DNA of 64,000 bases, from NCBI RefSeq assembly GCF_000711225.1, contig NZ_JOMG01000004.1:620001-684000 (forward strand), in the 5' to 3' direction. The stretch comes from Pelobacter seleniigenes DSM 18267 (lineage in GTDB: Bacteria; Desulfobacterota; Desulfuromonadia; Desulfuromonadales; Geopsychrobacteraceae). A program made the position numbers and the translations under genes. This document shows, piece by piece, positions 34,266 through 62,159 of this stretch. Every line of letters begins with the position of its first letter. Position 1 is the stretch's first letter. The notes under the pieces are model-generated. The model searched no databases. It had not been told where the DNA came from and was given only the letters and a program-made list of their open reading frames with translations.

Positions 34266-34340
<75 letters not shown>

Positions 34341-34639: not shown

Positions 34640-34714
<75 letters not shown>

Positions 34715-34865: not shown

Positions 34866-35285
34866 TGGTTATCTCACCCCCATCCCGACCTTCCCCCATC
34901 AAGGGGGCAGGAGCATGACACTGTCATAATCCATAAATCGTTGGCAGTGTTGGGTTTTAGGCGAGTACGGGACGATATTCCATCAACCCGCGACTCTTGC
35001 AATTCCGCAGCCCCTCCGTCCGCCAATACGAGAAGCGAAGCTTTTCGTTCAGGCGCATTCGACGACGTTATGGTTAGTAGCGGCCATACTTCGTGATTAA
35101 ATGCAGCGGTGACCAACCCTGCCCAACTATCAGCGACCAGCGCGTAGCGATATTGCTCCCGAAACAAACGAAACTCCCGAGCAATCAAAAGGCCATTTTT
35201 TGCCATCTTTTTGTTGGCCTGGACAAAAAGGTGGGCGGCGTGCGGGGCCGAGCCCCCGCGACCTTGACTTTGATTTGGAGTTTTT
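34866..35285 (-). repeat. Dispersed repeat, inverted copy A (about 420 bp)
   Basis: On the minus strand this segment aligns along its length with the tandem copies at 47362-48329. Shared landmarks are GGTCGCGGGG(G)CTCGGCCCCG, a CTTTTTGT/ACAAAAAG hairpin, GCTCGGGAGTTTCGTTT, ATAGTTGGGCAGGGTTGGTC and GTCGTCGAATGCGCC. The end is a CCCCCTTGATGGGGG hairpin followed by AAGGTCGGGATGGGGGTGAG. A 110-codon frame is open on the minus strand, but the other copies break it, so I do not call a gene. It fills most of the gap between the second tRNA and the HDOD-GGDEF gene; the remaining bases show nothing clear. Confidence 0.8.
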
Positions 35286-46279: not shown

Positions 46280-46693
46280 ATGACTGAATTACGCTGCTCA
46301 ATTCTCAAGAATCAACGGGGGTTTACCCTGTTCGAACTGCTGGCTGTCATGCTGATCATGGCGGTCCTGGCGACGATTGCGGTTCCCAGCTATAAACGAA
46401 GCCAGATCAAAGCGCAGGAAACCGTGCTGGCAGAGGACCTGTTTCAGATGCGGCGTGCTATTGATGCTTACTTTTCCGACCATGCCCGCTACCCGGACAG
46501 TTTGGATCAACTCGTGGAAAACAAATACCTGCGGGGAATTCCCCGCGATCCGTTTACCCGAACTGAAGACAGTTGGAAATGCGTTGCCCCGGAACCGGGA
46601 GAATCTGGTGCAGTGGCTGAGGGAGGCTGTTTTGATGTCCGTAGCGGAAGCGATCTGATCGGGTTGAATGATACCCCTTATCAGGATTGGTGA
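46280..46693 (+). CDS. Type II secretion major pseudopilin (GspG-like)
   Basis: A 137-residue prepilin with leader ending NQRG, then FTLFELLAVMLIMAVLATIAVP (Phe1, Glu5). The conserved GspG region YLRGIPRDPFTRTEDSWK is present and the C terminus is NDTPYQDW, parallel to the upstream pseudopilin. The gene starts directly after the previous stop. Two related GspG-like genes in a row suggest a duplication with specialisation, one perhaps major and one minor. The Geobacter pseudopilin OxpG belongs to the same kind of operon, as far as I recall. Confidence 0.9.
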   Translation: MTELRCSILKNQRGFTLFELLAVMLIMAVLATIAVPSYKRSQIKAQETVLAEDLFQMRRAIDAYFSDHARYPDSLDQLVENKYLRGIPRDPFTRTEDSWKCVAPEPGESGAVAEGGCFDVRSGSDLIGLNDTPYQDW

Positions 46694-47265: not shown

Positions 47266-47361
47266 CAGGGGCTATCCGTTTGCCGGGGTGTGACCTGCCA
47301 GATTTGATGAAATTTCGCTCCTTACTCATCTAAAATCCAACATTGCCAACTATTTATTGAC

Positions 47362-47815
47362 TATGACAGTGTCATGCTCCTTCCCTCTTGATGGGGGAAG
47401 GTCGGGATGAGGGGGAGACCAACCTTACCGCACTGTGACCGTTTATGCCGAAAATCTTCAAATTCTTGAAATCAAAGCCAAAGTCGCGGGGTCTCGGCCC
47501 CGCCGCCGACCATCTTTTTGTCCAGGCCAACAAAAAGATGGAAAAAAATGGCCTTTTGGCTGCTCGGGAGTTTCGTTTACTCCAGGTGCGGGATAGCTGC
47601 TCGTTGGTCGCTGATAGTTGGGCAGGGTTGGTCACCGTTGCATTTAATCACGGAGCATGGCCGCAACTGGCCTGACCGTCGTCGAATGCGCCCGACGAGA
47701 AGCTTTGCTTCACGTACTGGCGGACAGAGGGGCTGCGGAATTGGAAGAGTCGCTGGCTTGACGGAATTTTGTTCCGTACTCGCCCAAAATCCAACATCAT
47801 CAAGCCGTTATTGAC
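47362..47815 (+). repeat. Dispersed repeat, tandem copy B (454 bp)
   Basis: Runs from ATGACAGTGTCATGCTCCTT, through a CCCTCTTGATGGGGG hairpin and a CCATCTTTTTGT/ACAAAAAGATGG hairpin, to just before the next hairpin unit. It is nearly identical to copy C directly downstream (period 454-455 bases) and related to the inverted copy A at 34866-35285. No intact gene is present. With copy C it accounts for the 1.1-kb gene-free stretch between the pseudopilin and the YkgJ-type gene. Confidence 0.85.
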
Positions 47816-48329
47816 TATGGCAGTGTTGTGCCCCTTCCCCCTTGATGGGGGAAGGTCGGGATGGGGGTGAGATCGACCTTACCGCACTGTGACCGTTTAT
47901 GCCGAAGATCTTCAAATTCTTGAAATCAAAGTCAAAGTCGCAGGGTCTCGGCCCCGCCGCTGACCATCTTTTTGTCCAGGCCAACAAAAAGATGGAAAAA
48001 AAATGGCCTTTAGAATGCTCGGGAGTTTCGTTTACTCCAGGTGCGGGATAGCTGCTCGTTGGTCGTTGATTCTTGGGCAGGGTTGGTCACCGTGGCATTT
48101 AATCACGGAGCATGGCCGCGACTGACCGCGGCGTCGTCGAATGCGCCCGACGAGAAGCTTTGCTTCACGTACTGGCGGACAGAGGGGCTGCGGAATTGGA
48201 AGAGTCGCTGGCTTGACGGAATTTTGTTCCGTACTCGCCCAAAATCCAACATCATCAAGCCGTTATTGACTATGGCAGTGTTGTGCCCCTTCCCCCTTGA
48301 TGGGGGAAGGTCGGGATGGGGGTGGCCAG
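47816..48329 (+). repeat. Dispersed repeat, tandem copy C (455 bp plus closing hairpin)
   Basis: A second copy of the unit, closing with a third CCCCCTTGATGGGGG hairpin at 48288-48310. The hairpins at 47379-47401, 47833-47855 and 48288-48310 mark the unit borders. Copies B and C differ by scattered substitutions only. The unit shows no conserved start codon or ribosome site. Confidence 0.85.
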
Positions 48330-49027: not shown

Positions 49028-49058
49028 TATAGGTTTCCTTCCAACGGGGTTGCTATAG

Positions 49059-49200
49059 CAAGGTGTTGAAAAATTATCTGCGTTGCAATTACTGCGTTAA
49101 AAATAGCCTCAAAATCCTCATTTACTGGATGTAAACTGCGCTTCTTCGGCAATTTTTCCTTGTCCTTGCTGCCTCGAAAACGTTTTTCAACACCCTGCCA
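49059..49200 (+). repeat. 142-bp inverted-repeat element
   Basis: The ends AGGTGTTGAAAAATT and GTTTTTCAACACCCTGCC are inverted copies with a 13-base core (GGTGTTGAAAAA). The interior is AT-rich and has no gene. It lies between the convergent tail of nrdJ and the start region of the yjdM gene and looks like a small non-autonomous element. Confidence 0.6.
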
Positions 49201-61955: not shown

Positions 61956-62159
61956 GGGATCGTTTTTTCCCGGAAGACGGTAGCTGACCCGGTACAGGAA
62001 CTGGAGTCGATGTGCGAATGTCTTCCGAAACACATACCGCCTGGATCGTTAATGACCGGGACGGAAGGTATTGAAAGATAGATCACAGGGTCTTGTCCGC
62101 TCTGCGTGTGCCTTTCGTTTCGGCGAACGGCATTTTTTGTTTTAGAAAAGGAATTTATC

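Follow-up and report, generated by a model that had tools for sequence, protein, structure and literature searches.

The genome of Pelobacter seleniigenes DSM 18267 carries a tandem repeat with no evident gene, raising the question of what kind of element it is, where it ends, and whether it acts as DNA or as RNA. The window analysed here, 64,000 nucleotides in length, contains two non-coding head-to-tail units that are 95% identical and spaced at 454/455 bp, confirming the arrangement originally described. Unit 1 (47388..47841, + strand; C4:667388-667841 on contig C4) comprises a module, a left arm and the border, and unit 2 (47842..48296, +; C4:667842-668296) is a second half-element of the same kind. 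To the left of the array lies a stub of approximately 82 nt (47304..47385, +; C4:667304-667385), identified by sequence match as homologous to the unit 3' end, which aligns to query positions 372-453 with 77% identity. The array is flanked on one side by a pseudopilin-like gene cluster, with a PF07963 methylation motif at 46280-46690, and on the other by a CxxCxxCC-domain gene followed by a YjdM/PhnA gene. The diverged inverted copy reported beyond the tRNA-Gly pair (34266-34340 and 34640-34714) was also recovered in a similarity search of the own genome, with a core at 34903-35276 (82% identity, E 2.5e-100). On the - strand, this third copy has a border palindrome at 34889..34911, a left arm at 34999..35190 and a double-pseudoknot end module at 35187..35262 (covariance model, 75.7 bits).

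A genome-wide count of copies had been proposed as a check on the original prediction. The own genome (5.09 Mb, 6 contigs) was found to contain about 17 copies of a core of approximately 290 nt, with 75-82% identity outside the tandem pair, as well as 33 matches to the end module by covariance model R1; both copy numbers are far above chance. Spurious ORFs of up to 100 aa overlap the units, as might be expected of a degenerate gene family. Against such an origin, no ORF inside the units had a Pfam match, the 17 copies contain stops in every one of the six frames, and their indels are nearly all of 1 nt. Their variable columns are evenly spread over the three phases (47/86, 49/86 and 49/86), with no codon-phase bias, and the codon-type conservation that was to count against the original prediction was absent from all 17. 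The repeat is non-coding, in keeping with the earlier view that the unit holds no intact gene, and descent from a gene family is scarcely credible. A BLASTN search of the whole window unit against phages and plasmids returned nothing.

The hairpin shared by the units had been taken as their border. The palindrome (CCTTCCCTCTTGATGGGGGAAGG in copy 0) is indeed present at the unit junctions, at 47379..47401, 47833..47855 and 48288..48310, in each case on the + strand. It is not, however, the boundary of the element: the border sequence CCTTCCCCCTTGATGGGGGAAGG has about 30 matches of 26-32 nt genome-wide, many of them without the core, and in full-length relatives within the own genome the border (CCTTCCCCC..GGGGG) is centrally placed. 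It is a short repeat in its own right, internal to the element, and not a functional boundary. By inspection against a published pattern (PMC4666352), its sequence, CCTTCCCCC-TTGAT-GGGGGAAGG-TCG-GGATGGGGG, has a G/C-rich intrastrand triplex layout with one mismatch. Identity of the border with the GGGGWSAS TIR of RAYT genes was considered and rejected, as the motifs near the RAYT genes of this genome mostly have a different sequence, GGGGACAG being one, and none corresponds to the border.

A full element in the own genome consists of a left module, a left arm, a middle section with or without the border, a right arm, and a right module that is inverted relative to the left and belongs to another subtype, giving two subtypes per element. 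The length of such convergent module pairs is nearly fixed in each genome: 532-547 bp in G055, 508-533 bp in G085, 483-488 bp in G061 and G075, 507-514 bp in G016, and approximately 580-665 bp (about 650 bp) in the own genome. Overall, an intact element is about 480-670 bp long and non-coding. The copies in G055 have approximately 540 bp in common and are 82-93% identical between the modules, with unrelated flanks. The inverted terminal ends are near-perfect in Paraburkholderia, whereas in the Desulfuromonadales they are inverted in structure only. Since the window units stop at the border, which is central in their full-length relatives, they are half-elements, and the proposal that the 455-bp unit is a whole element has to be abandoned in favour of one of about 650 bp. 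Tandem arrays of modules are present in the window and at C4:836-838 kb. In another genome (G046:C1:347300-349300), four modules in the same orientation repeat with a period of about 308 bp, which makes a tandem array of single-ended units comparable in type to the one in the window.

The end module is 75 nt long. Hairpin A comes first and is joined by a short linker to hairpin B, whose 5' strand is rich in pyrimidines; an A-rich linker and then a tail follow. Loop A pairs with the linker between A and B, and loop B pairs with the tail, resulting in two consecutive H-type pseudoknots. In unit 1 the module, with both pseudoknots, is located at 47483..47557 (+; covariance model, 79.5 bits) and is followed by the left arm at 47554..47744 (+), which is conserved only among the 17 copies of the own genome. 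The unit 2 module (47937..48011, +; covariance model) has a mismatch in stem A and a damaged pairing of the stem A loop with the linker. Its hairpin B pseudoknot (47964..48009, +) comprises stem B at 47964-47975/47984-47995, the loop CCAGGCCA at 47976-47983, the A-rich linker at 47996-48003, and the tail TGGCCT at 48004-48009, which pairs with AGGCCA of the loop; the unit 2 left arm follows at 48009..48199 (+).

An alignment for covariation had also been suggested originally, and both pseudoknots were found to covary. Model R1 was built with the two stems only, neither pseudoknot pairing being supplied to it. For the hairpin B pseudoknot, 56 of 72 loop/tail clusters had at least 4 complementary bp, compared to 15.1 after shuffling (maximum 26), and for the hairpin A pseudoknot 52 of 81 combinations did so, compared to 13.9 (maximum 24); the observed pairing was reached in 0 of 2000 shuffles in either case, for hairpin B as mean pairing. 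Across 135 distinct sequences in a model-fitted alignment, the whole structure had 88% paired cells versus 70.4%, a measure that counts sequences rather than events, and a covariation score of 0.399 versus 0.119 (0 of 500 shuffles; slid controls at most 0.104). Shuffle tests are inflated by relatedness among sequences, but the identical pairing recurs with other letters in other phyla, as TGCC/GGCA, GTGGCC/GGCCAC and TCGCC/GGCGA. Some main-subtype loci were collected with a pattern that fixes part of the loop and tail; these lie outside the sources of the covariation set, yet inside the R1 seed alignment. The double pseudoknot is conserved and both knots covary strongly. An RNA structure for the 190-nt arm was dropped from consideration, as it showed almost no covariation (2 of 38 pairs).

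The end module is the only part of the element to be shared between genomes. When a 275-nt consensus core was compared by BLASTN to 98 related genomes, 43 matched, nearly always over the first 90 nt or so only; the arms are conserved in the own genome alone. An exact-pattern search for the shared part among named genomes gave 51 stretches, labelled as Desulfuromonadales, Desulfuromonadaceae, Pelobacter, Desulfuromonas, unclassified Deltaproteobacteria and, in one case, Chloroflexi. Model R1 detected 3 to 41 modules in each of ten members of the order, and distant forms of the module in other classes of Desulfobacterota. A query with a distant form matched sequences in Burkholderia, Paraburkholderia (dozens per replicon), Pasteurella, Pseudoalteromonas, Aeromonas and Ilyobacter, and these keep the same structural plan with the exception of the Burkholderia cepacia match, in which loop and tail are unpaired and which was taken to be decayed. 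In Pasteurella multocida (NZ_CP020346), the stretch directly behind dapF contains an element that has a module at each end and whose long arms are complementary.

Hairpin B has a further property. Read in reverse, the A-rich linker repeats the purine strand of stem B, as in CAAAGAAAAC-GAAG-CAAAAGAAAC, and this mirror match exceeded the direct match in length in 26 of 41 informative combinations and fell short of it in 3, with a mean reached in 0 of 2000 shuffles. The mirror strand covaries, as do both pseudoknots. Within a single strand, module B contains a Y tract, an R tract and a mirrored R tract, each no shorter than 6 nt, and its loops often exceed the 1-6 nt of ITxF. Stem B and the linker together have the layout of a purine-motif intrastrand triplex; the purine linker could lie as a third strand on stem B. 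Full elements treated as single-stranded DNA fold far better than shuffled sequences (z -10.5 in the own genome and -22.1 in Paraburkholderia), while the window unit folds moderately (z -2.95).

The repeat might also be read as a structured RNA family, regulatory or a small RNA, that has spread and whose pseudoknots act in transcripts. In favour of this, an H-type pseudoknot whose linker is A-rich is typical of RNA, covariation is strong, and a number of copies were seen by eye to lie shortly downstream of apparent gene ends. However, a count from the covariation alignment puts G-U pairs at about 1% of the paired cells of stems A and B, and such scarcity would be expected where the folding strand is DNA or where both strands have to fold; the modules form inverted pairs at the two ends of one element, and the element occurs in both orientations. 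In addition, the arm lacks useful covariation, and no Rfam family matched the repeat at gathering or permissive thresholds. A structured RNA is therefore the less likely reading, a DNA structure being favoured, and we regard an RNA family as unlikely. The original prediction had called for a mobile or structured-RNA element rather than decay; in kind this holds, the repeat having proved to be dispersed, non-coding, structured and covarying, and of the two options offered RNA is the one that fares worse.

A DNA structure could also be kept by replication slippage, template switching or gene conversion, through triplex or palindrome instability, and never transpose. In its favour, intrastrand triplex motifs, whose layout is seen in both the border and module B, have been connected with genome instability in E. 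coli (PMC4666352), and there are tandem arrays and sites common to related species. Old copies could also have stayed similar through gene conversion with one another. Elements nevertheless have sharp ends at the modules and inverted modules, and occur in both orientations with unrelated intergenic flanks, all of which need a step of copying to a new site, and a purely non-transposing origin appears quite improbable. At one intergenic site bounded by two orthologous genes, an element of about 520 bp is present in G085, none in G046 and G077, several in tandem in G092, and one of opposite orientation in G066, a comparison that spans diverged species and in which loss and gain look the same. G061 has two full elements, both with orthologues among the full elements of G075, and most of the sites tested in two Paraburkholderia replicons from relatives of the query strain retain the element, no precise strain-level empty site being found at comparable sites. 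This sharing of sites indicates that movement is slow.

No transposase linked to the element was found. Association with RAYT or TIRYT transposases was rejected, as modules do not flank PF01797 (RAYT-like) genes: the 1.5-kb flanks of 37 loci contained one incidental module. By eye, neither a GTAG nor a CGTC tag was visible at the base of the palindrome in the module alignments, and the G055 alignment showed no recognisable target-site duplication. The IS481, IS256-like and IS5-like copies that were seen are insertions inside elements. Two 1.77-kb elements in G066 that were candidates for autonomous long versions proved to be ordinary elements (L252 and L253), each with an IS481-family insertion in an identical position immediately after the pseudoknot tail. 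The two IS are 99.8% identical and their host elements only 84%, so the copies were probably hit separately. Targeting by IS is not a rule, since the IS256-like and IS5-like insertions in Paraburkholderia elements are at different positions; in a P. caribensis replicon, three elements (L355, L356 and L357) contain IS256-like insertions (two copies, 100% identical) and an IS5-like insertion, named from their translated sequences. In G085, heptamer arrays of CTCAGCA/CTCGGTA lie directly beside many elements (flanks of L196-L202).

We consider it reasonably probable that the two units in the window represent truncated copies, duplicated in tandem, of a MITE/REPIN-like mobile DNA element that is non-autonomous and has structured ends. 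The right half was probably lost first, after which recombination or slippage between direct repeats, namely the border and the 82-nt or so of end sequence, would have produced the array. The ends of such an element may be recognised by a nuclease or transposase while it is single-stranded, at a replication fork or as an excised strand. Recognition by shape would conserve shape over sequence and allow the cargo to drift into genome-specific sequences. More tentatively, the family may represent a class of non-coding mobile DNA that is both ancient and widespread, present in Desulfobacterota, Beta- and Gammaproteobacteria and Fusobacteria, with ends that an enzyme recognises as a single-stranded double pseudoknot/triplex.

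In its parts the element resembles known kinds of repeat. Like REP, BIME, REPIN and TIR repeats, which occur with RAYT or TIRYT transposases (PMC3116915, PMC3733652), it involves non-autonomous, short palindromic intergenic repeats found in inverted pairs and clusters, with genome-specific subfamilies, and as in a REPIN an inverted pair of palindromic repeats surrounds a short spacer in a non-coding, multi-copy unit. It differs from the REPIN/RAYT system in its double-pseudoknot ends of about 75 nt, which lack the tag, and in flanking no RAYT gene. MITEs are likewise a few hundred bp long, multi-copy and intergenic, with inverted ends and no ORF; here, the ends are alike in structure but often not in sequence, given the two subtypes per element, and neither a parent insertion sequence nor a target-site duplication was recognised. 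Intrastrand triplex motifs (PIT elements and TM_ECO; Holder et al. 2015, PMC4666352) are a known kind of bacterial repeat, and share with this family the order of Y strand, loop, R strand, short turn and mirrored R strand, as well as being repeated, intergenic and often in inverted pairs. The window border corresponds to the G/C-rich PIT type, and hairpin B with its linker to an A/T-rich type. In contrast to PIT and TM_ECO, the third-strand end is anchored here by covarying loop/tail pairs as a pseudoknot, a second pseudoknot adjoins, and the motif is placed at the ends of an element with a defined extent of 480-670 bp. A covarying double pseudoknot as the end of an element was absent from Rfam and from the open-access literature that was searched.

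Bacterial intergenic palindromic repeats are often annotated as spurious ORFs or ignored. One such family now has defined ends, a testable structure of two covarying pseudoknots and a mirrored third strand, and evidence of turnover at a single site. For intrastrand triplex repeats, this poses a concrete question: which enzyme recognises the ends, and is folded single-stranded DNA its substrate?

Two other features of the window were noted. To the right of the array, at 49058-49198, is a repeat of about 143 bp with inverted ends GCAAGGTGTTGAAAAA/TTTTTCAACACCCTGC, a second MITE-like repeat, unrelated to the array, that has three copies in the genome with 93-100% identity. At 61986-62068 (+) lies the Rfam pan motif (RF01749), an RNA known to regulate pantothenate genes in cis.
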